From Epinephelus fuscoguttatus (lineage: Eukaryota > Chordata > Actinopteri > Perciformes > Serranidae), in the NCBI RefSeq assembly GCF_011397635.1, contig NC_064775.1, positions 16,009,452 through 16,073,451 on the forward strand: DNA of 64,000 nucleotides, written 5' to 3'. Position 1 is the stretch's first letter. Each line of letters starts with the position of its first letter. Positions 7,399-41,215 of this stretch are shown piece after piece. The notes under the pieces were generated by a model that saw only the letters and a list, made by a program, of their open reading frames with translations, searched no databases and was not told the DNA's origin. Both the position numbers and the translations under genes were made by a program.

Positions 7399-10248
7399 TC
7401 ACTTGGCACAGACGGTATAATTGGAACTCTGTAAAAAATTCCCTGCATGTGTGTCCTGTGTGGTAACCGTGTTTGAATTAATAGTGTCAGTGTCACACAC
7501 ATGCAGTCTGACCACTGAATAAAGTCCACCCTCTCGCTGTACGAAGGTGCTGTACGGCTCAATGTCTTCTGGCTCCTGCTGAAAAACATGCATTTAAAAA
7601 GATGATTAAAGTCAAATGAGCGGCATAAACAAAATATATTTTTCTGTACATTACCGTTTTGTGATGACTGCTTGGTGGCTCTGGCTGGCTTCTGTTGGGT
7701 CAAACAACAATACATTAAAAATGAATCTTAAAGTGTATTCTCTATTTTTATAGATAGAACAGGAAATGAAAGGCAGTGTCGTCCTTCATTAGTTCATGAA
7801 ACAGAAAGTCAAGATCTTCATATACTGCTGCAGTAGTCTCTTACCCCTGACGCATTCCTCTGTAGAGCAACCCAAAGATAACTGCAGATAGAAGCATGAT
7901 CATAGCAGCACCAGTCAAGGCTTCTATAACCTTTTTTGGAAAGCTGCTGGAGTCTTCATCCTCTAAAACATCACAAACAAACGACACAGACATTTGCTCT
8001 ATTAGTAAATAAACTTTAAGGCCCATTTACTCTATGCCTTGATTAATCTTTAAACTATACATAAATACAGGCATTGCACTACCATTTTAACATAATACAG
8101 TTGTTGCAGGGCAGCTTACCACCAGAAGAAAATGTACGTCTCTGCAAACTACGGATATGTTACATGCACGTTTTATACATGAGCTGACTTTGTCATCGGT
8201 AGGTGGAGGGGATAGTAGATAGCACTGACGCCTGAGACACCTGCAGAGCTGCAGACCACCGTTTCAGACCAACAAACAGACTAGTAGTTTTTTTAGCAAG
8301 TCTTCACTGTGCTTCCAGCCGCTCTTTTAAGCCACCAAATGTTTTTAGAAACCCTTTGCTGTCTTTCCACAAAAGGTGATTGTGTGTTTTACCAACATCA
8401 TTGGGTTTCCTGCCAGGACAGACACTGCTGCATTTACTGCTGGGATAGTGCCACAAAAAGCAACTGTTTTTTTTTTTTACTGAGACATTGCTGTGTTTCC
8501 CACTGCATTTCCTGCTCAGATGCCACAAAAAGTGACTGTTTTTTACCATGGCATCTGTGTAATTCCTGCTAGGATAGTGCCACAAAGAACGGCTGTTTTT
8601 ACCAAGACATCACTGCATTTCCTGCTGGGATACTGCCACAAAAAGTGTTTTTGTTTTTTTTTCTTTACCAAATCATCTGTGCATTTCCTGCCAGAATTGT
8701 GCCACAAAGAACGGTTGTTTTTACCAAGACATTGCTGCATTTACTGCTTGAACAGTGCCACAAAAAAGTGGTTGTTTTTACCAAGACATCGCTGCATTTA
8801 CTGTTGCATTTCCTGCTCGTATCGTGCCACAAAATTGACTGTTTTTTTTTACCAAGACATCGCTGCATTTCCAGCCAGAATAGTGCCACAAAAGGTGGCT
8901 GTTTTTGGCAAGACATTGCAGCATTTCCTGCTGCATTTCCAGCTCGTATCGTTCCACAAAATTGACTGTTTTTTTTACCAAGACATCACTGCATTTCCAG
9001 CCAGAATAGTGCCACAAAAAACAGTTGTTTTAATCAAGACACCACTTCCTTTACTGCTGGGATACTGCCATAAAAAAGGTTATTTTTACCAAATCATTGC
9101 TGCATTTCCAGCCAGAATAGTGCCACAAAAAACTGTTGTTTTTACCAAGACATCACTTCCTTTACTGCTGGAACAGTGCCACAAAAAGTGGCTGTTTTTG
9201 GCAAAACCGCTGCATTTCTTGCTCGTATCATGCCACAAAATCTACTGTTTTTTACCAAGACATCTCTGCATTTCCAGCCAGAATAGTGCCACAAAAAGCA
9301 CTTGATTTTACCAAGACATCGCTGCATTTACGGCTAGGATAGTGCTACAAAAAGCCATAGTTTTTTAACCTAGACATATGTGCATTTCCTACAAGGATAG
9401 TGCAATGAAAAGTTTTTAAAACAGAGACATCTCCAGCCTTGATTTTTTTTTTAATGCCCAAACATGATCAAGTCATTTTTGATTCAAAATCAAACCACAG
9501 CATTGTTGAAACATAAAGAAAAAAAAGTTGAACGAATGCACAACATAATAACGTGCATACTGGTGTGTAACTCATCTGTGGTTTGCAGAAACGTACAATG
9601 CCAACATTTTTTTTCTGAGTTGAGCAGGGTGAAAAATAACCAGCTTAAATTCAGGCATGAGGAACAATAAAGAAATTGTGTTTACCTTCCACAGTGATAT
9701 TCAGATGGAAAATATCTATTCCACCATGATGTGTACACTCACATCTGTAGTTCCCACTATCCACTGGTGTTAAACCAGTGAGCTGGAGAAACACAGTCTG
9801 ATTCTTTGTCACAAGTGTGAACCTGGAGTCACATCCGTGCTCAAAGCCTTTGGCATATTGATAAGACAGGACACACTCTTCTCTTCTGTTCATCACTGTT
9901 CCGATCTTACACAATATAAGTATGATGGGACTCAGTGTTGCATTTGTGCATATTGGAGTCACATCTGGTTCTCTGCTGATGGTTTTCACGACAGTCACTG
10001 AAAATAATAGTCTGATTAGCTGCTGCTGTATTTCGGCAATTTGTAAACATTACATCACATTTTTAATTCACTGAAAAATTCAGAAAAGGTTCAGTCGTCC
10101 TCTTTAAACCAAAGACAGGAAGAATAGAGACAATTAACTTGCATAAATTTTCCATTATGTGAAATAAGTTTTTCTGTACATTACCTTCACTGTCAAAACA
10201 CATAGTCAGTGGTAGAAGCAGAACAAAGCACAGTTCCCATTTTACCAT
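7399..10248 (-). CDS. Receptor gene A: single Ig V-like domain, type I membrane protein, two-tyrosine tail
   Basis: I assembled five exons: 10248-10185, 9997-9686, 7962-7845, 7691-7655 and 7578-7399. All have GT-AG borders and consistent phases (1, 1, 2, 0), giving 236 aa. Residues 1 to about 17 are a hydrophobic signal peptide. Residues 22-125 are an Ig domain with cysteines 38, 51, 63, 77, 107 and 109, the F-strand motif DSGNYRC, and an NQT glycosylation site. An acidic stalk precedes the membrane span (about 140-159), which has Glu139 at its outer edge. The tail has Y186 (EPYSTF) and Y197 (GLYSVV), spaced like an ITAM pair but not matching the consensus. It is the most downstream member of the cluster. 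Intron 2 is expanded by a minisatellite. Ligand and direction of signalling are unknown. Confidence 0.8.
8340..9420. repeat. Minisatellite, about 16 units of 53-72 bp, in intron 2 of gene A
   Basis: A unit of the form 'tttaccaagacatcgctgca ... gtgccacaaaaag' recurs. The 'tgccacaaa' anchor occurs near 8450, 8522, 8578, 8634, 8700, 8756, 8826, 8884, 8953 (variant), 9011, 9067 (variant), 9121, 9177, 9230, 9288 and 9344 (variant). Long open frames on both strands here are by-products of the repeat. Confidence 0.85.
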
Positions 10249-10390
10249 GCTGGTGAAGAAGCAACAGTTGCCCGCAGTGAGCTCTTTCCTGTACTGACTG
10301 AAGGAGGACAGATACACCTCTATACACTGCTGTCTGGCTACCTAAACCTCACACTTTCTCAGAGGTACGAGCTGGTGTAGACTGTCCTAG

Positions 10391-10400
10391 AAAGGAAGTG
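10391..10400 (-). promoter_or_regulatory. ETS/PU.1-like site upstream of gene A
   Basis: AAAGGAAGTG on the plus strand, about 145 bp upstream of the gene A start codon. It sits in a block of more than 150 bp that is nearly identical upstream of gene B. Confidence 0.5.
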
Positions 10401-10469
10401 CTGCTGCAGGAACTTCTGCTTTCATATTCAGACACTTTCACCTTCAAAAACACTTCTCATGTCGATGTT

Positions 10470-11127
10470 TAATGTAGCCACAAGAAGATGTCAGATCATC
10501 AAACATCAGGTGTACAGCCACAGTTTGAACTGGATCAACCTCCAACCCTAACATGAAGTATTGCCTGCACTGGTCTTAGACTTTGTCTGGTTATTGAGAG
10601 TCGTACGTCATACAAGATGCTGAAACTGACATGTGTGCCTCTGTGGTCATCACATATGTAAAAGGCTGAGCTTGAGCTGTGAATAGAAAGCTGCAGGGTC
10701 TCAACAGCTCACTGCAATTCATGTTCCTCTGCTCTTTAAAAAGGAAACCAGTTAGTCATACAGCAGTGGTTTAAGTGGCAAAAACATATTTCACCTTATG
10801 CCAGAGAGTCAACCCAGTTCAAGTGAAGAAACTAACTGTGGTCTTCAATCTTCAATTGCAGCTTACAGTTGCAATGGCAGAATTTTATTTTGAAATTATC
10901 CTAATTAATCACTTCTCTTTGTTTCAACCGTTTCAAACTTGACGACACAAATTTTCTAAATTGGTTCAAGTGTACTTCCTGTGTGACTGCGTAATGCAAG
11001 GAAACAATATATCGTTTATAGTCTGTGGTAGCTGACAGGAAGTAAACAGGAACCAGTGCTGTTGTCTGAGCAAGAAAAAAAGCAATGAAATGATCTATAG
11101 ACCAAATCACAATGTTTGTGATAGTAA
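10470..11127. other. Unassigned spacer
   Basis: Upstream flank of gene A with similarity to the flank of gene B near 15720-15960. No exon or further element was recognised. Confidence 0.35.
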
Positions 11128-11480
11128 CTTCCAGGTAGAGCAGTCTGTAAATGTCTGGGAAGTGAGGAGGCCAGTTGCTGGAGTTTGGGGTGAGGAATGT
11201 TGTCCCATTGATGTAGAATTCTAGCTGCTCAACGGTCCTGGGTCTTCTTTGCTGGATATTTCGTTTTATGATGTGCCAAATGTTTTCTATTGGTGAAAGG
11301 TCTGGACTGCAGGCGGGCCAGTTCAGCACCCAGACCCTTCTACTGCGAAGCCATGCTGTTGTGATGTGGTTTAGCATCGCTTTGCTGAAATATGCAAGGC
11401 CTTCCCTGAAAGAGACGTTGTCTGGATGGGAGCGTATGTTGCTCTAAAACCTCTATGTACTCTTCAGCATTGATAGTGCT
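11128..11480 (-). mobile_element. Tc1-like transposase fragment
   Basis: The minus strand encodes the C-terminal part of a Tc1/mariner transposase: LNWPACSPDLSPIENIW followed by KRNIQQRRPRTVEQLE. It carries the last DDE acidic residue in its usual context. A frameshift after EQLEFYI moves the following WDNIPHPKLQQLASSLPRHL to another frame. The N-terminal half and the terminal repeats are missing, so this is a dead fragment. Confidence 0.85.
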
Positions 11481-11774
11481 TTTTCCAGTAACAAGTAGTG
11501 TAACTAATTAATAATACAATTTGAGCAATAATTGCAGTTACCCCAAAACCAAACAACACATCACAACGTTACTTTTGTTATCACTCCACCACTGACTTGA
11601 AATACAACAATCATATCTGCAGACTCATTTTTGTAGTTGCGCTGCGCAGGCACGTCACAAAGCAGCAACCTTAGTGGCTTGAAATATTCCCATCACTTTG
11701 ATTTTGTCAGGAGGAAAGATGACAAGAACACTGTTACTGCAGGTAGTCCAACTAAAACTCTTTCCACTGCAAAA

Positions 11775-11778
<4 letters not shown>

Positions 11779-11817
<39 letters not shown>

Positions 11818-12077
11818 TTTATTTATAAAGCCCAATATCACAAATCACAATTTGCCTCACAGGGCTTTACAGCATACGACATCCCTCTGTCCTTATGACC
11901 CTCGCAGCGGATAAGGAAAAACTCCCAAAAAAACCCCTTTAACGGGGAAAAAAAACGGTAGAAACCTCAGGAAGAGCAACTGAGGAGGGATCCCTCTTCC
12001 AGGACGGACAGACGTGCAATAGATGTCGTACAGAACAGATCAGCATAACAAATTAACAGTAATCCATATGACACAAT

Positions 12078-12139
<62 letters not shown>

Positions 12140-12970: not shown

Positions 12971-12999
12971 TCACGACAGCACTATCTGATAAACATCTA

Positions 13000-14009: not shown

Positions 14010-15504
14010 TTATGTTGATTCGTTACTTGAAATGTTTTCATAGATGTCACAACTTGGATCAGTCTCTACTCCATCTATTTCGTAGTTATGCAGACAGGCA
14101 GTGCTGTTTGCTGAATCTGAGATAGTTTGGTAGAGATCACTCGCTGGCTGCTGGAGGCTTGTGTAGGGGTCATCTCCATCCTTTACAAAAAAAAAAATAT
14201 AAATCACAATGCATCATGGTTTTAAACTACATTATGTTGAACAATGGAAACACTATTTATGTATGTTTGATTCTCTTCCTGAGTTTAAAGGTACAGAATA
14301 TCAGAATACATTACTCACTAAAGAGCCGGGAGTTTCAGATAATCCAGATGTGGCGGATCTTGAACAGCATCTTTAAATAGAAAGAGTTATCAGATCTAGT
14401 GAAACACAAAATACACACGCACACACAACAGATATCATCTGAATTGAACAGTCTTCCCTCACCCATGATGTATTCCTCTGCAGATAGACCCAAAGATAAC
14501 TCCAGTTATAATGAGGACTGCAGTTAGACCAATCAGAACATTTGGGATCAATATGCGTGTATAACTGCTGGTGCCTTCGTCCTCTGAACATTGTAAAGAC
14601 AGAAATCTTTGTCAGAAAAATTGTGCAGGTATTGGTCCTGTTTGTGAAGAAACACATAATTGTATTCCTTCTGGTCACAATATAATGTGATATGTATTTA
14701 ATTACATTTTCATATTTTATCTTTGCACGACAGTGTTTCACCTGGATCATAAACTCTGCATTTTACATCTACAGACAGCAGCTATGAATATCAAGATGTG
14801 CTCCCAACAGACTTAAAATATCCCAAAATACTTAAAGACATTACTATCCTATACTCTTCTTGACATTGAAAGAGGACTAATTTCATGTTAATGATAATAA
14901 TGTTGAAATATTCACAGCTAAAGTAGGAGAGAAATGCATTAAGTTTGAATCCTAAAAGCAAAAAATATTTACCTTCCACAGTGATATTCAGATGGACAAT
15001 CTCTATTCCACCATGATGTGTACACTCACAGGTGCAGTCCCCACTATCCACTGGTGTTAGATTGATCAGATGGAGAAACACAGTCTGATTCTTTGCCACA
15101 AGTGTGAACCTGGAGTCACATCCATGCTCAAACCCTTCGGCATATCGATAAGACAGGATACACTCTTCTCCACTGCTCATCACTGTACTGATCTTACACA
15201 GTATAAATATGATGGGACTAAGTGTTGCATTGGTGCATATTGGAGTCACATCTGGTTCACTGCTGATGGTTTTCACTAGAGTCACTGAAAATAATACAGT
15301 CTGATTAGCTGCTGCTGTATTTTTGTATTCTGTGAATATGAAAGCACATTTTTAATTCCAGTAGAAAATTACAGAAAATGTTTAGTTGTCCTCTTTGAAC
15401 CAAAGACAGAAATATAAAGAAAACAACTTCTGTACATTACCTTCACTGTCAAAACACACTATCAGTGGCAGGAGCAGAACAAAGCACAGTTTCCATTTTG
15501 CCAT
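14010..15504 (-). CDS. Receptor gene B: single Ig domain with cytoplasmic ITAM
   Basis: I assembled five exons: 15504-15441, 15284-14973, 14583-14463, 14370-14319 and 14180-14010. Phases are consistent and the product is 239 aa. It has a signal peptide, an Ig domain (residues 22-125) and an uncharged membrane span (about 136-160). The tail fits the ITAM consensus exactly: D186, Y189-TSL, seven residues, Y200-QTI. Further tyrosines are Y216 and Y230 (DIYENI, a pYxN GRB2-type site). An ITAM in the same chain as the Ig domain predicts an activating receptor that recruits Syk or ZAP-70 without an adaptor. In the F strand the usual Tyr is Cys105 (DSGDCTC), giving a seventh cysteine. NILT-like is my best family guess. 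Confidence 0.82.
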
Positions 15505-16623: not shown

Positions 16624-19600
16624 TTAAACGTTTTCATAGATTTCACAACTTGGATCAGTCTCTCTGCCATCTACTTCCTGGTTATCCAGGCAGATAGCAT
16701 TTGAGATAGTGTGGTAAACATCACTCATTGGTTGCTGCAGGCTTGTGTAGGGGTCATCAGGGTCATCTCCATCCTATGAAAAATACAAATGTGGGTGCAT
16801 TGTGTTTTTAAAGTCTAAAGGTTGAATTATGTCTCTCCTGAGTCACTACATTTACTGAAACCCTTTAAATGTTTCCTCACTGATACTCAAACATATAACT
16901 GAAATATCAAATATAAACATTTATATACATTCTTAGATGTGAAAAATGCTTAAAGCATGTAGAACTATTAAAGGGGCTCTATGCAGTGTTCAGAGCGTAT
17001 GAGTTGTCTGGTCACGGATCTCAACATGGAGGTGGCTGAGCCAGCAGCTAAATAAAAAAAGACTTGCAACTCGACTTGGACTTCAACAGCAGTGACTCAT
17101 GTCTTCATTCGGACTTAAGCCTTTTGACTTGAAAGTACTTGATACCTTCCCCCAAGCCCAAAGATTAAAAATTATGTGATTTAAAAAGTGTTCCACTGAA
17201 TAATTCATTATAATATGCATGAGCACTTTTTCAAATCCCATTTTAACGGCATACTTTGGCAACGAGTGTATGGTATCTACAATTGTGTAGAACGTGAGTG
17301 GGATGGGGGCATTTTTATTTATTTTTCTTACTATTTCTTACTTATTTTTATATATGAGCCCGGTCATTGAGTGCACCTGAATTCCATTGTATGTCTGTAC
17401 AATGACAATAAAAAAAATCTGAATCTGAATTTCCTCAATCAGCTGAATTAAGGGCCCGTCCCAAGTCCCCTGTTGTACATACATTTTGTCGTCTGTCGTT
17501 CATCAAACAAAGCATGATGAATACAGCAAATGCTATCGGTAGGATGCACTCAACTGGAGACTCCATTGTAGATGCCGGCTGGAAATGTAGATGGCTCACG
17601 GCTTCCTGTTTAAAATAGTTACGTATGCGTGACCGTAACCGATGCGGTGACGTAGTGAGTGGTGTCCCAATTCCTAGGGAAAGATTTCAACCGCTACCCC
17701 TCGTGGGGGCTAGGGGTAGTGGGCAAGGGCTAGGGGTAGGGCCAAGGGCTGAGGGGTAGTGGACAAGGGGGGGTATTGAGATTGGGCCTAACCCATTTGC
17801 AGCAAGTCGACACTAAATTCCCTAAATTATTGACTTAGTTTGTACCAAATCCAAAAGCATTTGATTGAGTTGCAGGAAAGAACTATGAAAACCTAACGTT
17901 AGGTTACCGAGCGCCAAGTGGAAAAAAATATACCAGAGAATTTTTTATGTACAAAAGAATGTAATGGTCAAAAGGCAAACAAACTAATTAAACCTAGGAT
18001 TACTATATGCAAAACATGTGGGGCAAAAAAGACCTAACAAATTCTAAAAACCTTGTTTTGACATAAGTAGATTTTTTTAAAAGCACTCATGATATTTTTT
18101 TTTTGTAAAATTATTATACTTATGTTGTTAAAATGGCATTACATTTGGTGAAGAAGACATAGCCCCGTTTCCACCAAGCAGTTCATTTTAGTTCATTACA
18201 CATTTTTTCTGTTTCCACTGTGAGAAGTTGTGGGTGGTACCAAGAGAACTGTCCCCATTTTTGGTCCTCCCTCTGCTGGGGTACCTAGCACACAGATCTG
18301 GTACTAAAAGGTGGAGCTGTGAACACTGCAGTCTGTTGATTGGTCAGTAGCAGACAGTCACTCTGCTCAGGGCTGAGCTGTGGCTGGTTTTGAATCCTTT
18401 ATGTAACCACTGTTCATACTGTGGCAAGTCTACATATATTAGAAACTATAAAATAAAAGGATGTTTTGCTGTCTCTTGCAGCAGCTATAGACTGCTCCGG
18501 CAACACTCAACACTGCTCTTGCCTGAGAAGGACTAAATGCATAAACTTGCTACTTATAAATATCCCAACAAGATAGACTCTCACTGCAGCCTGTTTTATT
18601 TTGTTCTAAAAGTATCAGCGTGCAAACCCCTGTGGACGATAAACCAGCTGCAGACTTCCTCTGTGTCACCAATGAGGAGGAAATACAGTGAAAGCTGGCT
18701 GGAGCAGTGAGTCACAACAACCCCACCCACATTTAAGTACAGCCTGCACTGCAACTCAAAAGGGAATTAGGGTCTAGGTACCATGTCTGAAGGGACTCTA
18801 CAGGTACTATACCTAAAGTTTTTGGTGGAAATGGGGCTTATGACTTGCTTAGGACTCGAAACTCAAAGTTTGGGCCTTGGGACTTGACTCGGGTCTTGTC
18901 AGTCATGACTTGGTCCCACTTGTGCTGGCAGCTAACAGTGCTAGCTCCATAAACAGCGCCAACAACAGCGACTGCTCTGAAAGAGCTAATGTTCTTAACG
19001 CGGGGGGACTGGAGGGTGGGCACTACAGTTAAGCGACGATGTTGTCCTGATATCAGTGGTAACTGCTGTATGAGCACAGTGCAAAGTGGCGGCGATGAGC
19101 TAGCCAGTAGGATATGCACATGTGCTAATATGCATGTGTAGCCAGACCAGTTAACGACAACAAACCACAGAGAAGCTCAGATTCCAATTCATTAAGAGGG
19201 CGTGACTCCATTATCTGTTGTTTGGTGTTACATTAATGCTCTGAACTTTTACACTATAGAATATAAGAATACATTACTCACCGAAGAGATAGGAATGTCA
19301 CCTACAGATACTCCAGATATGGCTGATCTTGAACAGCGTCTTTAAATAAGAAGAATTATTTGAGTCAGACACACACACATACACATACAAACACACCAGA
19401 AATCATCAATATTACAGTATTTTCTCACCCATGACGTATTCTTCTGCATATTAACCCCAAGATAACTCCAGTTATAGTGATGCCTGTAGTTACACCGATA
19501 AGAACACTTAAGATCAGCATGCGTGTTGAACTGCTGGTGTCCTCCTCTGAAATATTGTAAAGAAAGAAACCTTTGTCCAAAAAATGGTACAGGATTTGAT

Positions 19601-20386
19601 TCTATTGTGAAGAAACATTATGATTATATTCTTTTTGGTTTGCAGTATAAAGTCATATTACATTACAGAACATATTTTCCATATGACCTTTATTTTATAC
19701 TTGCACCACACTGTCTCACCTGGATAATAAGCTCTGTATTTTACATCAGCTAAACAGACTTAAAATATCCCAAATTACTTAAACACATTACTATCCTATG
19801 CTTTTTTTTTCTTTACCTTGAAACCAGTCTAATTTCATGTTAATAATAATGCTAAAATATTCACAGCAAAAGTAGGAGAGAAATACGAAAAGTGTGAGTC
19901 AAAAAAGCAAGAAAATAAATAAAACATTTACCTTCCACAGTGATACTGAGATGGAGACTATATACTCCACCATAGTATGCACACTCACAGCTGTAGCTCC
20001 CACTATCCACTGGTGTTAAACTGGTCAGGTGGAGAAACACAGTCTGATTCTCTGTCGTAAGTGTGAGCCTGGAGTCACAGTTGTTAACAAAGACTCTATG
20101 ATCATCATACGTCAGACGACACTGTTTCACCCCTGTTCTGATGCTACAAATAATAAATATGATGTGACTCGGTGTTGAGCATATTGGAGTGACGTCTGGT
20201 CCTCTCCTTATGGTTTTTACATGAGTCACTGGAAAAAAATCCAAAGTTAGGAATACTATTACAGACTACTCATTATTCTAACAAACTGTAAACATGCATA
20301 AACTTTATGTAATAAAAAGATACAGTACCTCCAGGGCCAAGACACAAACACAGCGGCAAAAGCAGAACAAAGCAGAATTGATCCAT
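16624..20386 (-). CDS. Receptor gene C: single Ig domain with cytoplasmic ITAM
   Basis: I assembled five exons: 20386-20329, 20228-19932, 19546-19429, 19339-19282 and 16773-16624. All phases are consistent and the product is 226 aa. It starts MDQFCFVLLLPLCLCL, a clear signal peptide. The Ig exon is 297 bp, the shortest of the cluster, and keeps six cysteines, NQTVFLHL and DSGSYSC. The membrane span (MLILSVLIGVTTGITITGVI and onward) has no charged residue. The tail repeats DDP before the ITAM: Y186-TSL, seven residues, Y197-HTI. It ends in EIYENV (Y223), a pYxN motif. The last intron is 2.5 kb because a set of transposable elements has inserted. Splicing across it is inferred from matching phase 0 and from homology to gene B. 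Confidence 0.78.
17449..17793. mobile_element. MITE-like element with GGGCCC...TTGGGCC ends
   Basis: The left end 'agggcccgtcccaa' and right end 'ttgggcct' are roughly inverted. The inner part is rich in CCCCTA/TAGGGG runs, a pattern familiar from fish MITEs. No target duplication was resolved. Confidence 0.4.
18161..18839. mobile_element. MITE with about 17-bp terminal inverted repeats
   Basis: AGCCCCGTTTCCACCAA at the left end pairs with TTGGTGGAAATGGGGCT at the right end, with one mismatch. Inside are 'ggtacc'-type inverted words. It is not coding. The same terminus starts a partial copy at 21931. Confidence 0.7.
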
Positions 20387-22647: not shown

Positions 22648-25600
22648 TCAAACGTTTTGATAGATGTTTTGATCAGTTTCTCTTTCATCTATTTCCTGCT
22701 CATCCCACTTGTCATGTTGTTGGTGCACTGAGAAGACAGTTTGGTAGAGGTCACCTGCTGGCTGCTGAAGGCTCGTGTAGGACTCATCTGGGTCATCTTG
22801 GTTCTGTGGAAACATTAAAATCTCACTGCGCCATGTTTTAAAAGTCAGACCAAGTTAAATCTTCAAAATTCTGTCTATTGTCTTACAGTGGACTTTAATG
22901 ACCATTTAAGGTTGGACTTAGCATTTCATGGGAGGTCCACATTTTTTTATGTCTGTCTTAAAACAGCCCAAGTAGCCAAAATAACCTGGCCCAGCATTGG
23001 CCCAAACTTGGGACGCCAGGAGAAATAAGTTGGGCCACATCCAGTTTCCTGACTCAGCTGAGACTAGTATTGAATGATCCCTCAGAATCAGGCAAAATAA
23101 ACTTGCCCGATTCTGGCTGTTGACACTGCCATCATTTGGCCCTGTCAAAAAGGACCTGGCCGAGCATCAGCCCAGACTCAGCATGTCGAAAGAAATAAGC
23201 AGGGATTCATGCAGTTTATATATAGTTTTGATGCTAGGAGAGCCAGGGCAGATGCATTGCATTGTATTTGAATGTACAGGGTGCTTTTTAAAGTACATGA
23301 CCATAAACTTGAACTTGATTACAAATCTGCAGTGGTGGAATGTAACTAAGTACATTTCCTTAAGTACTATACTAATATTGCTTACAGCTCTACATTTAAT
23401 TGACAGCTTTAGTTACTTTATAATTTGAGATTTTTGCATAAAAACTTACGAGGAGCTCATAAAATGTGATGTTTTATTATAAACTAAATCATTGTACTTA
23501 ACAATATATACACTCAGAGCAGAAATAATTCAATTATTAGCTGATTAATTCTTTCAGAAAATTTACGGCAACTATTCTGTTAATTGTTTGAGTTGTTTGT
23601 CATGCAAAAATGCAAAAAACGTTTCCTGTTTACAACTTAAACGAAAATAATTAGTTACAGCATAAAAGTAAATTGACATGCCCGTTTTATTTATATGATT
23701 GCAGCTCTATGCAAAATAATTAAGTTTCTCCTCGACCAATGGCAACAAACCATGCTTTTACATGAAAGCATGAATAACAATGTATTGATATAATTCTGTG
23801 TAACAGTCACAGGAGACATTTGTCTGCATTGAATACTTTTACTTTTGATACTTTAAGAGCATCTTTCTTTGTAACAGTATTTGCACAGTGTGGTGTTAAT
23901 AGTTTTACATCAGCAAGGGGTCTGCATTCTTCCCCCAACTGCCTATCTGTTATTTAAATTAACAGCCACAGAATATACAAAAGGCTCGCTCTTGTTGCTC
24001 AGTTCGTTACATAACACTCCACTTTACATCACCCAAGAGGCATTGTGGTGGACCAGTGGTTTAGAAGCACAACATACTGTGCACTGTGAGCGCAATGTTC
24101 AATATCTGTCATGGTCATTTGTTTCATGTCTCTCTCTCTCATTGTTTCCTGTTTACATGTTAACTGTTTTTCAAAATATAATAAAAAGGCCTCTGCTGAA
24201 CACTTTGAATGTGAAAGCATATATATACAAATACATGAATACACATATTTAAATAGCTACTTCATACATTAGAATACATGGCTCACCAATGAGAAGGGGG
24301 TTGCACGGGTAGGAAACCCAGATCCTCCTGACCTTGTGTTGTCTCTGTAGATAAGAAAAGATGTCAGAGTTAGAAGTGCAACATGAAAATAAAAAACTAA
24401 CCTCTGACAAAAATAAAGATATAATTTAACTACATTTAACTAAGTATTCATTCAGAATATAAACAGCATGGGTTTACAAGGTTTATCTCTACGGTGGCCC
24501 TGAGGTTCAAAACACAATGACATTTCACAACACACTGACATTATGCAAAAAGACATTTCACAAAACACTGCAACATTGTTTTATTTTGTGAAATGTCATG
24601 TTTTGTGAAACGTTGCTGTGTTTTGTTAAATGTTATAGTTTTGTAAATGTCGTGATCTGTGAAATGATGTTTTGTTTAACTGTTGTTTCGTTAAATGTTG
24701 TTTTTTGTGAAATGTCATGTTTTGTGAGATGTTGGGTTTTCTTAAATAATGTAATGTGTGAAATGCTGTGTTTTGTGAAATGTGTTTTCTTAAATGTTGA
24801 AGTGTTTTGTGAAATATTGCATTTTGTAAATGTCACGATTTGTAGAATGTCATGTTTTGTGAAATATCATTGCGTTTTGTGAAATGTTGTTTTTTTTCAT
24901 GTTCTGAATTCTGAAATGTGTTTTGTTAAATGTTAAAGTGTTTTGTGAAATGTAGCTGTTTTGTGAAATGTCATGTTTTGTGAAATGCTGTTTTGTGACA
25001 GTGTTTTGTGAAATGTTGTTTTGTGAAATGTTGTGTTTCGTTAAATTTTGTAGTAGTTTGTGAATGTCGTGATTTGTAAAATGTCGTGATTTGTAAAATG
25101 TCATGTTTTGTGAAATGTCACTGTGTTTTCTTAAATGTTGTCATATTTTGTTGAATGCTGTGTTTTCTGATATGTTGCTGTGTTTTGTGAAATGTCACTG
25201 TGTTTTGACCCTCAGGGCCACCATAATTATAACTCCATCAGAAAGAAATTTTCACCTGAAATATTTTTTTCTCAGCTTATGCCCAAGGATAAGTCCAGTC
25301 CCAATGATAAATGCACAGCCAATCAAAATGGTAGTTGTGCGCAGTATCCTCGAAGAACTGCTGGGTTCTTAAGAACAAACAAAAAAGGTATTATTCAAAA
25401 CCACTTGACAAACATAAAACCAATAAAACACATTTACCTTCCAGTGACGGTGAGACAGAATATTTTATATTTTTTATTTTTATTCTTAAAGTGAGTATGT
25501 ATGAACAAAGTTGATATAGCATAATAACTTCACACTGACAGCAATGCACAAAGTTTCAAACAGAAAAGCAAGAAAATAAATTTACCTTCCACAGTCATAT

Positions 25601-26812
25601 GGAGAAAGAGAGTATCTTTCCCATCAGGAAATGGACATCGACAGGTGTAGTTCCCACTATCCACTGCTGTTAAACTGGCCAGGTGGAGATATACAGTCTG
25701 ATTCAATGTTATAACAGTGTACCTCGAGTCACAATCTGACTGTAATTCTTTTCCCTGTCGATATGCCATAGTGCAGTCTTCTCCCCTTTTCATTTCTTTG
25801 CTGATCCTACAGAGTATCACCGAGTCCTTACGCAGTGAGTCAGTGCTGCAGAGTGGAGCAACATATGGTTCTTCTCTCACAGTGGTTCTCACACGAGTCA
25901 CTGCAAACAATAGGGAAGACATTTTGAATGGCTTTAAGTGATTTTTTATTTTTTTATATGTGGAAGGCACTATAAAACTTCAATTTAAAGCCTACTCTCA
26001 ATCAAACACCCAGCCCCTTTTACCAGCCCGGTGTGGCTCCACATTTTGATAAATAAACAATAGTTCTCCAGATGTTAGCTACCTGAAATCATGTGTCCAT
26101 TCCTGGATTACCCTGTAAGTTATTCATATTCCTTTAGTCTGTAAGGGTCCTCAGATCAAAAGAATCAAAAGGGTTTGATTCTTTTGATCTGAGGAAAAAA
26201 AGAATCAAAAGGGTTTTTCATAAAAATTAATCCAAGTTGTGACAAATGTTTTCACAGGATAAAGTGGTGTTGCCGAGTGCTGTAAACCTCCAGCACCGTA
26301 ACTCTCTCTCTGATGCGCTGTCTGTTGGAGCTAGATCAAATGATTCATTATATAAATATTATCTGAAGCCCAATTTTTAACCAAGTAATATTCATACAGG
26401 TTTAAATAAATAATTTGAATGTATTTGCCATTTTTGCTGAGCAACAGTTTTGTGTGAAAGAAATTAAAGGCCTGTCCCAAATAGACGCCCTTGTGATTTC
26501 AGTGATTTAAGCAAATAATAGCCTGGGCTACTAAGTTTTACAATAGCTTAAATTGCTAAGAATATAAGCTTTCTCTCACATATTGTGTGTGTTGGTTATA
26601 CTTTTTCTATTATGTGTGATGACTGACTAAAACATGATGAGTCACATTATTCATTTCTGACCGCACTTGAATAAGTAGAATATAGACTGTGGGATAAACT
26701 CTTTAAAACTCTTTTATAAATGATAAAAAAGCTCCTGTACAGTACCTTCATGGTCAAAACACACACACAGTGGCAGAAGAGGAACAAGCCAGAGTTTCCA
26801 CTGGTCCATCAT
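22648..26812 (-). CDS. Receptor gene D: single Ig domain with ITAM-like tail
   Basis: I assembled five exons: 26812-26746, 25900-25586, 25367-25256, 24344-24287 and 22803-22648. They encode 235 aa with consistent phases. Two adjacent ATGs start the signal peptide; I chose the first. The Ig domain has the six family cysteines, LNQTVYLHL and DSGNYTC. The membrane span is uncharged (TTTILIGCAFIIGTGLILG) and followed by HKLRKK. The tail reads DESYTSL, seven residues, YQTV (Y193, Y204). This is an ITAM with Val in place of the last Leu/Ile. It ends NIYQNV (Y232), again pYxN. A separate signal exon at 27820-27886 could be an alternative first exon. Confidence 0.78.
24492..25223. mobile_element. Foldback MITE in a gene D intron
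   Basis: The ends are inverted copies of GGTGGCCCTGAGNNTCAAAACAC, left at 24492 and right ending at 25223. A TA dinucleotide follows each end, compatible with a TA target duplication. The inside is a degenerate array of the word TTTTGTGAAATGT. It is in reverse orientation for the first 90 bp and direct orientation after that. The right end lies only 33 bp from the transmembrane exon. Confidence 0.75.
26149..26194. repeat. Perfect 21-bp palindrome with 4-nt loop
   Basis: The arms are at 26149-26169 and 26174-26194, with the loop AGGG. Part of the arm recurs just after it. It lies in intron 1 of gene D. Confidence 0.9.
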
Positions 26813-30227: not shown

Positions 30228-32036
30228 TTAAATTTGTGTCATATTGAGTGGGCACACTGAATTCGGTAGTGTGACAAGTGAGTAAATGTCGTTCTCTCTC
30301 TGTAGGTAGGAGCTGTATGGCTCAATTTCCTCTGGCTCCTGCACAACAGTGCCCAGTGGTTCTGATCGTCCTCTGTCAAGTAAGCAAACAAATAAAAACT
30401 TATATTAGTGTTCTATGCAAAAGAACAAGTTTTCACTATTAATCAATGAAGAACATGTTATTCTTTACTTAAAATATTTTCAATCCCTATCTGTACTATA
30501 TATATGTACACAGGGCAGTGAAAAATAATTTGCTCTCTTCCTATGAAAGCAAAAAGGAGACATAAGTACTTTCATTTAAACGGCTGCTCAATACTTAACG
30601 TTGAGATTTAAACATCAATGAACTCTAACTATTTGATAAATTATGTATATGAATTTGTTTGTTTTTAATTTATCTCTTACATTTCTTGATTTACAATTTC
30701 AAAAGATGATTTTTTTTCAATGTTCACAAATTCAGATCCCTAAATTCAAATTTCAGAATTTAAAAAAACAGATTCAGGATGCTCAAATTTAATTAAGATT
30801 CAGATCCAAAAATTCACACAATCTTATGCTCTAAAAATGAGACAGCTTAGCAACCGTTTTGCTATTTCACTGCAACAAAAAACAACAACAACACATACAA
30901 CCATTGCAACAGGCTTTACTTTTCTGAAAAGCTGCAGTGAAATCAGACATTTGAAATCCTATTGCAACGGATTAAGTATCCAGTGGTTGTTATAATTAAA
31001 ATAATCATGTCTCTAATTTGCCTCCACACCTTCCGGTTTTCCTCTATTTTTTCACAGGGCCATGTGGTGTTAAGATAACCTTTATCCCTTCAATAAATAG
31101 TCATTTAAAAATTGTATTTTGTGTTCACTTGGGTTGTTATGTATTTAAGTGTGTTTGACAATCTGAAATAATTAACTGTGACAAATTTACAAAAATAAAA
31201 GAAGGCAGGCGGGCAAATACTTTTTTAAAAAGTCTCTTACCTGTGTGTATATTTTCTGCAGATAAATCCCATAATAACTCCAGTTATAATGACGAACATA
31301 GATACTGGACCACCAATAATTACAGCATGATGGAGAGGTATTTGTGTAGGGCTGCTGATGGCTTCATCTTCTTAAAAATTGTAAAGAAAAAAATCCTTGT
31401 CAGAGAAGCAGCACATAAGACACTCTCTGTTGTCCACAATATTATGTAATTAAACTACAATTTTATTTACCCCCTGAAGTTAAGCACACACTGGAAAACA
31501 CCCAGAGAAATGCAGAAAGTTTGAACATAAAAGCAAGAAAATCAATTAAACATTTACCTTCCACAGTGATATTCATACGGAGAGTATCTGTTCCATCAGT
31601 ATGTGAACACTGGCAGGTGTAGTTCCCACTATCCGCTGGTGTTAAACTAGTCACATGGAGAAACACAGTCTGATTCCTTTCCAGAAGAGTGAATCTGGAG
31701 TCACATTTGTGCACAAACTCCTCTCCATGTCGATACAGCAGACGACACTCCTCTCTGCTCCTTTCTGTTCTGATCCAACACACTATAAGAATGATGACAT
31801 GCTGTGTTGCATTGGTGCAAATTGGAGTCACATCTGGTTCTGTCCCGATGGTTTTCACAAGTTGCTGCCCTGTCTCTGCAATCAATTCATTAATGAAATA
31901 CAACAAATGAGTTGGCACATGCTGTATTTATGCATTTGTAAAATAAAAATTAAAGTAGTTCCTGTACAGTACCTTTCCTGTCGACAGAAACAGTGAGCTG
32001 CAGGAGCAGCACAAACCAAAGTTTCCACTGACCCAT
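30228..32036 (-). CDS. Receptor gene E: single Ig domain, two-tyrosine tail of the gene A type
   Basis: I assembled four exons: 32036-31973, 31875-31558, 31370-31241 and 30372-30228. They give 218 aa with phases 1, 1, 2. The start MGQWKLWFVLLLQLTVSV is a signal peptide. The Ig exon (318 bp) has the six cysteines, a Trp after the B-strand Cys (VCWIRTE), RNQTVFLHV and DSGNYTC. The membrane span (AVIIGGPVSMFVIITGVIMG) is uncharged. The single tail exon corresponds to two exons of gene A: EPEEIEPYSSY (Y190), then NDIYSLV (Y201). This is again an x7 spacing without ITAM consensus. The first two exons and intron 1 are almost identical to those of pseudogene F, 2645 bp away. Signalling direction is unclear. 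Confidence 0.78.
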
Positions 32037-33269: not shown

Positions 33270-33681
33270 TTAAATATCGTCATATATTTTGCAACTTGGA
33301 TCAGTCTCTCTTCCATCTACTTCCTGGTTATCCAGGCAGAAAGTATTGTTGGCTGAGTTTGTGATACTTTGGTAAACCTCACTCCCCGGCTGCTGGAGGC
33401 TTGTGTAGGGGTCATCTCATCTCCATCCTACACAAAAAATATATAAATCTGAATGCATCATGTTGTTAAACTAAATCGTGTTAAACAATGGAAGAGACAC
33501 TGTCACTCCTCCTGAGTCACTACATTAACTGAAACCTCGGCTTTGCAATAAGTGGTTAAAGGCAATGAACCTGAGAGTTAAAAAAAAATATTTTAAGGTA
33601 CATAATATAAGAATACATTACTCACCAAAGAGCCAGGAGTTTCCGATAATTCAGATGTGGCTGATCTTGAACAGCATCTTT

Positions 33682-33721
<40 letters not shown>

Positions 33722-33737
33722 GTTAGTGAAACACCAA

Positions 33738-33814
<77 letters not shown>

Positions 33815-34681
33815 AGGGGACTCAATGCTTATCACCTGGAAATCTTCTTGATATTACTGTCTTCTCTCACCCATGATGTATTATTTTGCAGATAAATACG
33901 AAGAAAACTCCAGTTATAATGATGACTGCAGTTATATCGATCAGAACACTTGGAATCTGCATGTGCGTAGAACGGCTGGTGTCTTCGTCCTCTACACAAT
34001 GTAAAGAAAAAAATGTCAGAAAATGACAAGGATATTTGTTCTATTTGTAAAGAATTCATATTGCCATTAGAAGCTCTTCATATTGTTCACGATGCAGTGA
34101 AAAAAATACTATCTCAAACTAAGCCAGTGCTAAGGTTGTACTAAGTAGGAAAGAAATGCATAAAGTTTGAAACAAAAACAAGAAAATAAATCAAACCTTT
34201 ATCTTCCACAGTGATATTCATACGGAGAGTATCTGTTCCATCAGTATGTGAACACTGGCAGGTGTAGTTCCCACTATCTGCTGGTGTTAAACTGGTCACA
34301 TGGAGAAACACAGTCTGATTCTTTTCCAGAAGAGTGAATCTGGAGTCACATTCGTGCACAAACTCCTCTCCATGTCGATACAGCAGACGACACTCCTCTC
34401 TGCTCCTTTCTGTTCTGATTCAACACACTATAAGAATGATGACATGCTGTGTTGCATTGGTGCAAATTGGAGTCACATCTGGTTCTGTCCCGATGGTTTT
34501 CACAAGTTGCTGCCCTGTCTCTGCAATCAATTCATTAATGAAATACAACAAATGAGTTGGCACATGCTGTATTTATGCATTTGTAAAATAAAAATTAAAG
34601 TAGTTCCTGTACAGTACCTTTCCTGTCGACAGAAACAGTGAGCTGCAGGAGCAGCACAAACCAAAGTTTCCATTGACCCAT
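33270..34681 (-). pseudogene. Receptor pseudogene F: Ig domain plus ITAM tail, three lesions
   Basis: The exon equivalents are 34681-34618, 34520-34203, 33991-33871, 33677-33626 and 33427-33270. Compared with gene E and the other paralogues it has three defects. A TGA stands at 34420-34422 where gene E has TGG (Trp in VCWIRTE). The Ig-exon donor reads AT instead of GT. The last exon carries a 5-bp insertion near its start that shifts the frame ahead of the ITAM. Past the shift the old frame still reads DPYTSL, seven residues, YQSI, and ends KIYDDI, where the pYxN is lost. The membrane and small cytoplasmic exons are open. The 5' half is E-like and the 3' half B-like. It may still be transcribed. 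Confidence 0.8.
33683..33812. repeat. Poly-A run and (CA)n microsatellite
   Basis: A run of more than 30 A residues (about 33683-33716) is followed by an interrupted CA repeat (about 33738-33811), both in an intron of pseudogene F. Confidence 0.95.
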
Positions 34682-34837: not shown

Positions 34838-34844
34838 GGAAGTG
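34838..34844 (-). promoter_or_regulatory. ETS/PU.1-like site upstream of pseudogene F
   Basis: GGAAGTG about 160 bp upstream of the former start codon, retained despite the coding lesions. Confidence 0.4.
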
Positions 34845-35930: not shown

Positions 35931-36225
35931 TTAAAAAAGCAAAAGAAATATTAAAATACAGGAGCTTTAATGCTGCAGCTGGTAAATGCGGAGCTAATCG
36001 TATGTTATCTTATTTTAATCTATAATAACACATCATATTTTATAGTATTAATCTAAACATGCAAATAAATGTAGTGGAGTAAAAAGTACAATATTTGCCT
36101 CTGAAATGTAGTGGAGAAGTATGAAGTAGCAGAAAATGGAAATACTCAATGAAAGTACAATATTTGAGTAAATGTACTTAGTTGGATCTACACACATTTA
36201 AGGGTTTTAAAATTATGTTATGAAT

Positions 36226-36361
36226 AATGACCTTAGTTGTTCTTTTATCTCAGACATGTTAGGATGGTGACACTTCCGAGGAAGGCAGAAGTTTCCGCTG
36301 AAACATGTCAAGGTATGTAACATCCTAACATGTCTGAGATAAAAGAACAACTAAAGTCATT
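36226..36361. repeat. 41-bp inverted repeat around a 54-bp loop
   Basis: The arm 36226-36266 is the reverse complement of 36321-36361 with one mismatch. The loop contains a GAGGAAGGCAGAAGTTTCC-like segment and a second short complement. It is probably a transposon remnant. Confidence 0.85.
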
Positions 36362-36648
36362 ATCAGAAACTAAAGACATAATGAACACCATTGAACTATT
36401 ATGTTATGAATGTTTGAGATGTTAAGCAACATAAGTAGCTCTGAATTTTCAGTGATTCATAATTCATAACCGTGTTACTGTACATGTATATAATGGTAAT
36501 ATGCATACTCTTCTCTCTGTGAGGAGTAGCTGCACATGACTAATAATGTGCTGTACAGAAGGAATTATGTGCATTTTTAACACTGTATAGTATTTTTGTG
36601 ACTTCTCCAACAGTTTGATTATAAAAACATCTTATCTTGACTTTGGGT

Positions 36649-39600
36649 TTACATGTTTTCATAGATTTCCTGTTCCAAATGCACAGTCACTATTTTGCTG
36701 CTGGCGGAAGTCCTCTTCATGTCAAGTTGATGGTGCACTGGGGACATAGTCTCGTAGAGGCCGCTTCCTGACTGCTCAAGGCTTATGTAGGGATCATCTG
36801 GCTCATCTTTGTCCTAAAACAACATATCAGAATTTATAATAAGGCACCCTAAAAAAAGTCTTAAGTTATAAATGTTAGAAAGTCATTATTAAGGGCCTTC
36901 TGTTTCTTAAGCTGTTAACTACAATTGGTTATAATGTTGTGAAAGATCTATTAGAAAGTGGTACTTGAAGGGAAAGTTTGGATTTTTTTGAAGTAGGGCT
37001 GTATGAGGTACTTAACCATCGCCTGTGTACAGTGTAATACCTAGAGCAGTGGCTCTCAAATGGTGTGCCACTGGATTTTGTGATAACCACACATTATTAC
37101 TATTACTATTATTACTGCAACATTCATTTAATTAAATTAAATTCAGAAAACCTTCAGAGAGCCATGAGTGGGACAATGAATTGCCGTATTGTATGGAGCA
37201 AGTTATAACAAAGCACCAGCGAAGATGACCTACCGCCAAAGGGAAAAAGACAGTATCACAAAAGCTACCTGTCCTATTTTTTCTTATCTTTATTGTCTAT
37301 GTTGTGATAAGAGTGATAACACATGTTACAGAAGCTGTTGTGCACAGATATAAATACAGGTGTGGCTAGGCCTGTCACGATAACAAATTTTGCTGGACGA
37401 TAAATTGTCCCAGAAATTATTGCGATAAACGATAATATTGCCATTTTGATACCATTTTTCAACTAATATAATAATAATGGTATAATAATGCAAGTACACC
37501 CATTTAAAGATAAATAAACTTTTATTGCTTAAGAATATTTAAAATTGGAATTGTATTATGAAAAAAGACATTGTAAACATCCAAAATAAATAATCAAAAC
37601 AACCAAAAACAATAAATAAAATGGACTGTCAGTCTCTGTTAACAAAAAATGCACTTGAATAAGCTTGACCACATGTCCGTAGTGGCAGAGTAAAATGGGA
37701 TGTCTTTGATCTCCTTCAGTATGTCGTCTTTCATGTTGTTGTACAGCTGTCGAATTGCCGTTTGTGACACGTATGTTTTCCCTGGCAATTCATACTGCCG
37801 GCTTTTCGACGGTGTTAAAGGGCTGCATCTCTTTGGCAATGTAGCGAACTACACCGTCTGTGAGTGCGCACCATTTGGCACTGTCACGTTTATATTTTGT
37901 TTGCTTCATAAACGCCCCAGTGATGGTGGACTGTTGGGAAGACGTTGACGGCCCCTCTGCCTCTTTGGTAGACGTTTTTTTTCCCAGCTGGGAAAACTGC
38001 AACGGGTGGTTGTGTTTGAGGTGAAGGTGCATGTTTGTCGTGTTGCCGCTTTTAGCATAAACTGTTTTGAAACAAATGCGACATACTGGCTCATTTATGT
38101 TCTGTGGTTCACCACGGTCATTTGGCTTAAATCCAAAGTGTTCCCACACGTCAGCTGTTGCTTTTGGCTTAGAAACCAATTCCATTGTTATTTATTCCTC
38201 CAAATCTCTCCCTCTACTCCTCACGGGCCTCTCATGCTGCACTCTGTCGAGATGGATGCAGCGAAGTTAACTCATTATCCAGTGTCTTTGGTAAATGAAA
38301 AATTATCGAGCCCGGCAAACTTATCGAGCTCATATTTAATTATCGTGCAATTAATTGATTTATTGATTATCGCGACAGGCCTAGGTGTGACACAAAAAGT
38401 TTGAAAACCACTGACCTAGAGTAGATCAGGTCAGTGTGCCCCTAGTTTGGAGAAGCAGATAGGAGTACTGCCACAGAAGCTAAGCAGTGTACTGCTGTGG
38501 ATGGGGGCAAAAGGGATATGTATTTTAGCTCCCTAAAAAAATAATCTATCAGCCTAAGTGTAAGTGTATGCTATATTAAGAATAATTGAACAGCTTTACC
38601 TTGCCGTCAGACTGCCCTTTCCAACGGGGAACTGAAGCTGTTACATCGCTGTCCTCAAAGCCACCAGACTCCATTGACAAAAACAGTAATTTTGCCTCTC
38701 TGAACACAGGAGCTGCTGGTCTACCACTGCATTGATTGGTAAGTTATTGTGTGACTTTGGTGAATACGAACTAACCCTTTAAAACACCAAAGTCACAAAA
38801 TACCCTAACTAACTAACTAACTAACTAACTAATAGAGGCAACGGTAGAAAAGCAGCTCCGGTCTCCTGTGAGATAAAATTACTGTTTTTGTCAATGGAAT
38901 CTGGCTTTGAAAAGAGCTTAGATAAGTTTCACTTTCAATTCACCTGTCATAAATCACTGTCTGACGGCAAGGTAAAGCAGTGAAAATATTCTGAATATAA
39001 TGTTCACTTAAACTGATATTATTTTTTTTTAGGCGCCTAAAGTCTGTTTTGCTGCTGCCCCTGTCCAAAGCAGTACATTGCTTAGCTTCCATGGCGATAC
39101 TCCTGTCTGCCTCTCCAAACTGGGGGCATGCTGACTGACATGTACTATATATAATACACTGACTATGGATAAGTACCTCATACAACCCCACTTCTATCCC
39201 TTTAAAATCCTAACATATCATGTTACATTAGTCGAAATAAATGAGGTTGAAAAAAGGTTGAGACATTGCACCTAACAAGGAAACCACAGTCTTTCGAAAC
39301 CTGTGACTCACCTGACCTGGCACTCACACCACTAACCCTCAACACCTACATCTACAGTATGCCTCCTTTCCTGAACATGACACCCATTAAATAGCAGAAA
39401 ACTACCTAATCATAGCCACAGTTTGTGTCTCTTAGCAGTGGACTCAGGCCGTTTAAGGGCGCAGGTCAAATAAAGATAAAAAGGGCACCAGCTGCATGCC
39501 ATGGGGCACCAGCATGTAGAAAGTTTTCTAGCATGTAGGGCAGCCTATGGCACTGCATGTTTTCTCAAGCGTTACCATTAGCAAGCCTGATAAACGCTGG

Positions 39601-40037
39601 TGGAAAAATAACGTTCAGATGCAGTAAACACAACACATGCATAACTGTGCTGTACTCAGAGCTTAAAAAATAAACAATAATAATGTAAGCAGAGAGAGTC
39701 AAGGTTTTCAGCTGGCCTAAACATTAATATGGGCAGGAAATTGACCTTAAAATGCAGAATTGTTGAAGATATAAGTTGGGTTTCAGAATCTCAAAAAAAT
39801 CTGCAATATGAACACCTTATACCGTGTGTGAAAACTGTCATCACACCACTGAATTGAGGTGGTTTATAATGGTGTGACAACCAAAAAACAAAGCAAAATT
39901 TGTGGCCATTTAAGAGGAGTGAGAAGTCAGCAGTCAACTATGAATAACCACGAGAGGTCGTTGAACATACAGCCATACATGTGCACACAAAATATTAAGC
40001 TGATTGGTCCAGTAGTTTGTGAGAGTATCTGCAGACA

Positions 40038-40087
<50 letters not shown>

Positions 40088-40499
40088 TAGCTACTTACTA
40101 AGTTAATAGTTGAAAAACAAAAGAATACATTGCTCACCACAGAGATGGGGGTTTCACTGACGGATGTTCCTGACCATGAATTGTATCTGAAAATAAGAAG
40201 TGACTTATTATGTTTTCCTACAAATACTACCACTGCTATGAAACTGCTGAGTATCCTAAATTACAGTGCAAAACACCAACTACCTACTGCACATTTAAAG
40301 TATTCACCTGCAAAAACACTTTCTGAGAGTGAGCCCGAGGACGACTCCAGTGACGGTGATTAATCCAGCAGCAAAACAAATCACAGCGGTATAAATGAGA
40401 ATTGTTATAGGAGAAGTGCTGCCATCTTCTTCTCCTAAAAAAACAAGAACACATTAGATCATTTCAGATTACATTATATTTAGCAATAAATACAGTTAC

Positions 40500-40598
<99 letters not shown>

Positions 40599-41215
40599 AT
40601 CTCATCTGACATCTGACAAACCACTGGCAAATATGATCAACGTCCATACCAAAATAGACATTAGTACTGATGCTAAGGTCTGACTTATTCTAAGCAGAGG
40701 CATCATGAAATTATCATAACTGTTGTGAGAGAGCTGCAAGGTGTCAAATACAACGTACCTTCCACAGTGACATTGAGGTGAATTGTATCTGTTCCGTGAG
40801 CATGTGAACACTCACAGGTGTAACTCCCACTATCCACTGGTGTTAAACTGGTCAGGTGAAGAAACACAGTCTGATTCTCTTCCATAAGTGTGAACCTGGA
40901 GTCACATTCATGTACAAAGTCCCCTCCAAATCGATACAGCAGATGACACTCCTCTCCCCTGCTCATCTCTGTGCTGATCCTACACACTATGAGCGTGATG
41001 GTGCTCAGTGTTGCATTGCTGCATAGCAGGGTGACATCTGGTTTTCTCCCAATGGTTTTCACAACCGTCTCTGCAATCATAGGGAGTGAGAGACTGCACC
41101 TGAATGAGCAAGACAATTAGGACAGATTAATAAAACTCTCTTGTACTTTACCTTCGGAGTCAAAACACAAACACAGTGGCAGGAACAGAAGAAACTGCAG
41201 TTTCCATTCAGTCAT
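36649..41215 (-). CDS. Receptor gene G: single Ig domain, ITAM-like tail with two YxxM motifs
   Basis: I assembled five exons: 41215-41152, 41070-40759, 40434-40308, 40186-40138 and 36813-36649. They give 238 aa with consistent phases. The product has a signal peptide, a six-cysteine Ig domain (NQTVFLHL, DSGSYTC) and an uncharged span (ITILIYTAVICFAAGLITVT). The tail reads DDPYISL, seven residues, YETM (Y193, Y204) and ends EIYENM (Y235). The second ITAM half and the C-terminal motif are therefore both YxxM, the binding motif of PI3-kinase p85. The last motif also keeps YxN. This is the first gene of the cluster in transcription order. The last intron is 3.3 kb because of nested transposons; joining across it rests on phase and homology. 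Confidence 0.75.
37039..38421. mobile_element. Middle hAT MITE (CAGTGG ends, 8-bp duplication)
   Basis: The body is 37047-38413, with left end CAGTGGCTCTCAAA and right end TTTGAAAACCACTG. The target duplication ACCTAGAG is perfect at 37039-37046 and 38414-38421. Without the inner insertion it would be about 340 bp. Confidence 0.9.
37359..38391 (-). mobile_element. Inner hAT element with remnant BED-finger transposase
   Basis: The body is 37367-38383. The 17-bp inverted ends TAGGCCTGTCACGATAA differ by one base. The duplications are GGTGTGGC (37359-37366) and GGTGTGAC (38384-38391). On the minus strand from 38185 it encodes a BED zinc finger (VCRICFKTVYAKSGNTTNMHLHLKHNH in part) and the start of a ZBED/hAT transposase up to SATTDMWSS near 37660. 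About 20 residues are deleted internally with a frame change, and the whole catalytic region is gone. It is a non-autonomous copy. Confidence 0.9.
40035..40084. repeat. (CA)n microsatellite
   Basis: About 25 CA units in an intron of gene G. Confidence 0.95.
40503..40592. repeat. (TA)n microsatellite
   Basis: About 45 TA units in the gene G intron between the Ig and transmembrane exons. Confidence 0.95.

Follow-up and report, generated by a model that had tools for sequence, protein, structure and literature searches.

Single-V receptors in a tandem cluster of Epinephelus fuscoguttatus, some with an ITAM of their own, probably belong to the CD200 receptor lineage

The inhibitory receptor CD200R1 of mammals recruits Dok2 through three tyrosines in its tail, while the activating CD200R1L uses a lysine in the membrane together with DAP12 (PMC8104416, in excerpt). 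Near-identical ectodomains on differing tails are the mark of paired receptors (PMC5098219, in excerpt). Teleost NILT receptors, according to the excerpt of PMC3022915, carry a CX3C, CX6C or CX7C cysteine pair and have six exons including one for a connecting peptide; their first four introns are in phase 1 and the fifth is in phase 0, and AG[TR]YWCG is the sequence encoded at the site of the pan-NILT primer. Here we describe a receptor gene cluster in a stretch of 64,000 nucleotides (the window; contig C24, positions 16009452-16073451) of the fish Epinephelus fuscoguttatus. The cluster very probably arose by tandem expansion from a CD200 receptor, and its genes would encode, after a signal peptide, one CD200R-type V domain with no C2 domain behind it, then a membrane span that mostly lacks charges, with the tail divided between two exons (one exon in gene E). 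The evidence is drawn from one genome (1.047 Gb in 26 contigs, searched throughout) and consists of sequence and predicted structure.

Seven copies of an immunoglobulin (Ig) exon of around 300 nucleotides lie in tandem on the minus strand at window positions 7399-41215. Spliced models with AG acceptors and GT donors resolve them into six open reading frames of 236 (A), 239 (B), 226 (C), 235 (D), 218 (E) and 238 (G) amino acids and one broken gene, F, which has an in-frame TGA in its V exon, has lost the splice donor of that exon and carries a frameshift in its tail exon. The six intact genes and one pseudogene of the original prediction were thereby borne out, and its boundaries proved exact, 7399 being the last base of the stop codon of gene A and 41215 the first base of the ATG of gene G. 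A common exon structure with common phases had also been claimed; five exons (signal peptide, V, transmembrane or TM, Cyt1 and Cyt2) with phases 1,1,2,0 are found in six of the seven genes, the exception being gene E, in which both tail exons are fused so that four exons with phases 1,1,2 remain. All seven strong matches of a genome-wide Ig search (E <= 1.3e-24) fell inside the cluster, and a genome search with the tail of gene C (E <= 10) found five places, the tails of B, C, D, F and G, and no match outside the cluster. For this reason we agree with the earlier suggestion of a separate expansion. Among the five Ig exons scanned with Pfam, E and G passed the V-set cut-off and A, C and D missed it.

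Genome searches with V domains were reciprocal between the cluster and a single CD200R-like gene on contig C13. That gene owes its name to its C2 exon; with its V domain alone, CD200R was not among the best 60 of 73 PDB matches. Alignment of the cluster's V profile to CD200R by hhalign gave 3.1e-10 versus 6.1e-6 for the best of 21 controls, and CD200RLa/CD200R ranked first when the predicted V fold was compared with 997 PDB chains preselected by Foldseek. An unrooted V tree with ultrafast bootstrap (UFBoot) recovered the cluster with a support of 98 and joined it to CD200R. The C13 gene, modeled on AG/GT sites without its signal exon, has phases 1 after V, 1 after C2, 2 after TM and 0 after Cyt1, and the cluster's phases are the same with the C2 exon taken out.

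Several points, here and in the comparisons of tails and ligand candidates below, weigh against this assignment. V-set controls also scored high in hhalign, two of them at probabilities of 85 and 82, the identity of the V domains to CD200R is just 19-30%, and the E-values of the genome-wide searches are modest (0.0009-0.08). Rows less than 1 Z apart in the fold ranking are tied, and the CD200R complex (13.6), human CD200R1 (13.2) and JAML (12.8) are this close; two of five AlphaFold models were good (predicted local distance difference test, pLDDT, of 79 and 71), the others reaching 43 at most. The grouping of cluster and CD200R in the V tree has a UFBoot support of 85 only. When the PDB was searched by sequence, the V profile and the V domain of G both gave generic Ig matches such as titin, nanobodies and pIgR, and CD200R was not among the best 60 matches listed. 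Finally, a C2 domain follows the V domain in known CD200Rs, whereas the cluster genes have a single Ig domain: the C2 exon is absent from all models, and a search of 144 kb surrounding the cluster gave no match to it at E 0.01. Because of this missing domain, we describe the receptors as CD200R-derived and not as CD200R.

A family of the TREM, NKp44, CD300 or pIgR type with an adaptor-independent tail would likewise have just one V domain and an additional pair of cysteines in it, and pIgR did appear among the PDB sequence matches. Yet the profile match to pIgR domain 1 is 3e-5 over 28 columns, weaker than the 3.1e-10 for CD200R, the fold ranking is led by CD200R, and the best span windows of the intact genes hold no lysine or arginine except for one arginine at the edge in D. 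Of these families, the sequence comparison covered pIgR; TREM, NKp44 and CD300 were not among the best 50 rows of the fold ranking, an absence that excludes nothing; overall, we consider such an origin very unlikely.

The lead of the original prediction, membership among the NILTs, is one that we rejected. NILTs, known here from their published features and not from sequences, resemble the cluster as tandem V-type receptors with an ITAM (immunoreceptor tyrosine-based activation motif) or its inhibitory counterpart, ITIM, in the tail, a feature found here exactly in B and C and as variants in D and G, and with a last intron in phase 0; the ectodomains of Ssa-NILT1/2 are also more alike than their tails (PMC3022915, in excerpt). 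Four other published features differ. None of the seven copies has a CX3C, CX6C or CX7C pair, and all have CX13C and CX1C spacings instead; the cluster models (five exons, four in E) contain no connecting-peptide exon; the phases 1,1,2,0, with phase 2 after TM, do not match 1,1,1,1,0; and strand F, where it reads DSG(x)(Y/C)xCxC, is without the YWCG hallmark. That the cluster is a NILT subgroup thus appears extremely improbable to us, and a place in the CD200 receptor lineage, as receptors with a single V domain and in some cases an ITAM of their own, is in all likelihood the better explanation.

The predicted V-like domain with six cysteines was found as described, since six cysteines are common to all seven copies (B has a seventh). 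In the structural model they lie at C19 in strand B, C32 in strand C, C43 in strand C', C57 in the C''D loop and C87 and C89 in strand F, with C19-C87 as the canonical pair. CD200R has a disulfide that joins strand C' to the C''D loop (PMC3664923, in excerpt), and C43 and C57 occupy its two positions both in the model and throughout the seven copies, so that the same bond is predicted here. One difference from CD200R1 lies in the core of the domain: in the CD200R alignment and the model, C32 occupies the place of the core tryptophan and C89 lies two residues past C87 in seven of seven copies, while B also has a cysteine in place of the strand F tyrosine. By a simple pattern, all 22 comparison V domains (20 of the 150 from a V-set search, the CD200R V and one CD200-like V) keep the core tryptophan and lack CxC. 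Because the place of the core tryptophan and the second residue past the strand F cysteine face each other across strands C and F in antibody numbering, we predict an extra disulfide, C32-C89, in place of the tryptophan.

Two types of tail are found in the cluster. Genes A (7399-10248; signal peptide 10185-10248, V 9686-9997, TM 7845-7962, Cyt1 7655-7691, Cyt2 7399-7578) and E (30228-32036; signal peptide 31973-32036, V 31558-31875, TM 31241-31370, fused Cyt exon 30228-30372) share the pattern EPYS[TS][FY]-x7-YS[VL]V, that is, EPYSTF-x7-YSVV in A and EPYSSY-x7-YSLV in E. This agrees with the EPYxS(Y/F)-x7-Y arrangement of CD200R; the CD200R1 tail presumably reads PYASY...NPLY, for which a literature search combining NPLY with CD200R gave no confirmation. 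The tail of the C13 gene reads TDDVEEVEPYASYVQRVNSIYNSSADLFT. A genome search with it (E <= 10) returned itself and the tail of gene E only (0.23, 60% over 20 residues), and the four best places in a scan of the 144 kb were the tails of E (57), A (43), C (33) and G (30), to be set against a mean of 28.3 and a maximum of 43 for 100 shuffled queries. Gene E therefore stands out by both searches. On the other side of the balance, A only equals the best shuffle and is borderline, C and G are inside the shuffle range, and the ten best places do not include the tails of B, D and F; by these comparisons, the genes B, C, D and G lack a CD200R-type tail. Imperfect repeats, seven copies of a 117-nucleotide reference at spacings of 56-184 bases, lie at 8539-9364 within intron 2 of gene A.

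The second type is an ITAM. It is exact, as had been predicted, in gene B (14010-15504; signal peptide 15441-15504, V 14973-15284, TM 14463-14583, Cyt1 14319-14370, Cyt2 14010-14180) with YTSL-x7-YQTI and in gene C (16624-20386; signal peptide 20329-20386, V 19932-20228, TM 19429-19546, Cyt1 19282-19339, Cyt2 16624-16773) with YTSL-x7-YHTI. Close variants had been proposed for three more genes, and this stood for gene D (22648-26812; signal peptide 26746-26812, V 25586-25900, TM 25256-25367, Cyt1 24287-24344, Cyt2 22648-22803) with YTSL-x7-YQTV and for gene G (36649-41215; signal peptide 41152-41215, V 40759-41070, TM 40308-40434, Cyt1 40138-40186, Cyt2 36649-36813) with YISL-x7-YETM, but not for pseudogene F (33270-34681; signal peptide 34618-34681, V 34203-34520, TM 33871-33991, Cyt1 33626-33677, Cyt2 33270-33427), a frameshifted remnant that shows the motif out of frame only. 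A third tyrosine motif, Y-[EQ]-N-[IVM], is found at the C terminus of B, C, D and G (YENI, YENV, YQNV and YENM, respectively), and we take it to resemble a Grb2-type site. When each tail was shuffled 20,000 times, the strict ITAM pattern arose in 0.085% (B) and 0.045% (C) of shuffles, and over all six tails in 0.005-0.085% (strict) or 0.3-2.1% (relaxed). The tail of gene A satisfies the relaxed pattern and not the strict one; that of gene E fits neither, a further point on the negative side.

How an ITAM came to sit on a CD200R-type ectodomain has two possible answers. It may have arisen in place from a CD200R tail through changes of the +3 residues, although the tails of C and G do not rise above the shuffles and those of B, D and F are missing from the ten best places. 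Alternatively, the lineage is CD200R but the ITAM tail was acquired from another gene by exon shuffling, as its scores of at most 33 against the CD200R tail, its additional C-terminal Y-x-N tyrosine and the different histories of ectodomain and tail (see below) would allow. We regard this acquisition as rather unlikely, given the same position in two exons with phases 2 and 0, the same Y-x10-Y spacing and a gene C tail that is unmatched outside the cluster.

Ectodomains and tails do not group alike. E and F agree at 98% over the signal peptide exon, 100% over intron 1 and 98% over the V exon, but at 61% over TM and 46% over the tail; for A and B the figures are 90% (V exon) and 38% (tail), and B, C and F resemble each other in TM (78-81%) and tail (82-84%); in sliding windows, identity falls within around 120 bases past the V exon. 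The V tree accordingly pairs A-B (96) and E-F (100), whereas the TM-tail tree sets (A,E) apart from (B,C,F),(D,G) with a support of 100, and each data set rejects the topology of the other (approximately unbiased test, p of 4e-42 and 4e-4). Judging from these alignments, ectodomains have therefore been exchanged between genes with different tails. The outcome, two cases of a near-identical ectodomain on two tails, suggests the design of paired receptors and is shared with the activating CD200R1L/CD200RLa-e, whose members have near-identical ectodomains and different tails; A and E would be the differently signaling partners, with putatively opposite effects. Rough dN/dS estimates gave no clear sign of positive selection, either in the Ig exon (0.38-1.10 for 15 pairs of six genes) or downstream of it (0.33-1.02 for six pairs among B, C, D and G).

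Membrane spans had been predicted to be mostly uncharged, and the best 21-residue windows of B, C, E and G indeed are; near the outer end, A has one glutamate and D one arginine, and two lysines lie immediately outside the window of A. No best window contains a lysine, the feature of CD200R1L and DAP12. With an ITAM in the same chain and mostly uncharged spans, signaling without an adaptor, as originally proposed, is the natural prediction. Receptors of the FcgammaRIIA type also combine a ligand-binding Ig ectodomain and an ITAM in one chain, and differ from the cluster in Ig domains and gene structure. A and E retain a CD200R-type tail with two tyrosines, and B, C, D and G (as well as F before its breakage) carry an ITAM that is complete or nearly so, its tyrosines spaced Y-x10-Y as in A and E. 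The V domains may bind CD200-like or similar ligands; upon clustering, Src kinases would phosphorylate the ITAM and Syk/ZAP70 would bind without DAP12, with the last tyrosine possibly adding a docking site of the Grb2 type.

Candidate ligands lie next to the receptors. Within 53 kb to the left of the window (C24:15.956-16.007 Mb, -53 to -2 kb), an array of 10 CD200-like V loci, accompanied by complete or incomplete C2 exons, is found on the minus strand, starting 9.6 kb from the receptor cluster. The best PDB match of the V exon is OX-2/CD200 (1.3e-15; next nectin-1, 8.6e-14), and that of the C2 exon is the same chain at a weak 0.032. The F-G cysteine typical of CD200 is kept in nine of the 10 loci, and the V exon is open in one frame in six and not in the other four; the copy nearest to the receptors, to the detriment of a linked ligand, has no open 5' half of its V exon. 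Seven further loci, of which one is just 31% alike, occur at C24:15.03-15.04 and 15.73-15.78 Mb, all these counts being lower bounds. On C13, the CD200R-like gene and a CD200-like V exon lie about 32 kb apart (25.749 and 25.782 Mb) on opposite strands; the name of the latter is less sure because OX-2 (1.9e-9) and nectin-3 (3.1e-9) score closely. The arrangement on both contigs could be accounted for by duplication of a CD200-CD200R locus and its expansion on C24.

This second locus also means that the linkage may simply be ancestral. The receptors would then not bind the neighboring CD200-like proteins; the linkage would merely be left over from an old CD200-CD200R locus, and the ligands would be proteins of pathogens or other proteins of the host. 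We put the chances of this at slightly below even. It accords with activating CD200R-like receptors having had no known ligands as of 2016 (PMC5098219, in excerpt) and with CD200 binding by CD200R1L being called controversial in 2021 (PMC8104416, in excerpt), but not readily with an expansion of both sides on C24, where 16 or 17 CD200-like V loci accompany seven receptors.

To the right of the cluster, GEMIN8 exons at window positions 51168-52007 and a Myelin_PLP (GPM6B-like) exon 40 kb past the window, near 103745, can serve as anchors of the locus for synteny. Frames at 52960-53619 are presumably remnants of a Tc1-type transposase, and a frame on the opposite strand there has no Pfam match. 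On the left flank, long frames at about -33.8 to -31.7 kb and -9.4 to -8.4 kb resemble, as we take it, reverse transcriptase of long interspersed nuclear elements (LINEs) and a BED-finger hAT transposase.

The cluster thus differs from inhibitory CD200R1 in its tandem organization and in the ITAM-type tails of B, C, D, G and the remnant of F. Our literature search, which covered titles and the openings of abstracts and leaves room for a mention inside papers, yielded no description of ITAM-bearing CD200R relatives in fish. It is a tentative proposal, less probable than its alternatives combined, that an inhibitory tail was rebuilt in place (PYxSY-x7-Y to PYTSL-x7-YxxI) into that of activating, DAP12-free CD200R relatives, which by ectodomain exchange came to match their CD200R-tailed sisters, evolved beside their own expanding CD200-like ligands and traded the core tryptophan for a disulfide. 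The activating step would seemingly have been taken inside the tail itself, unlike the membrane lysine and DAP12 of CD200R1L (PMC8104416, in excerpt). Within around 95 kb, the locus brings together genes with CD200R-type tails, genes with ITAM tails, a broken gene and a putative array of ligands. As a candidate for linked receptors and ligands, it would give the CD200-CD200R pathway, described in the excerpted literature as being of therapeutic interest, a testable system in fish.

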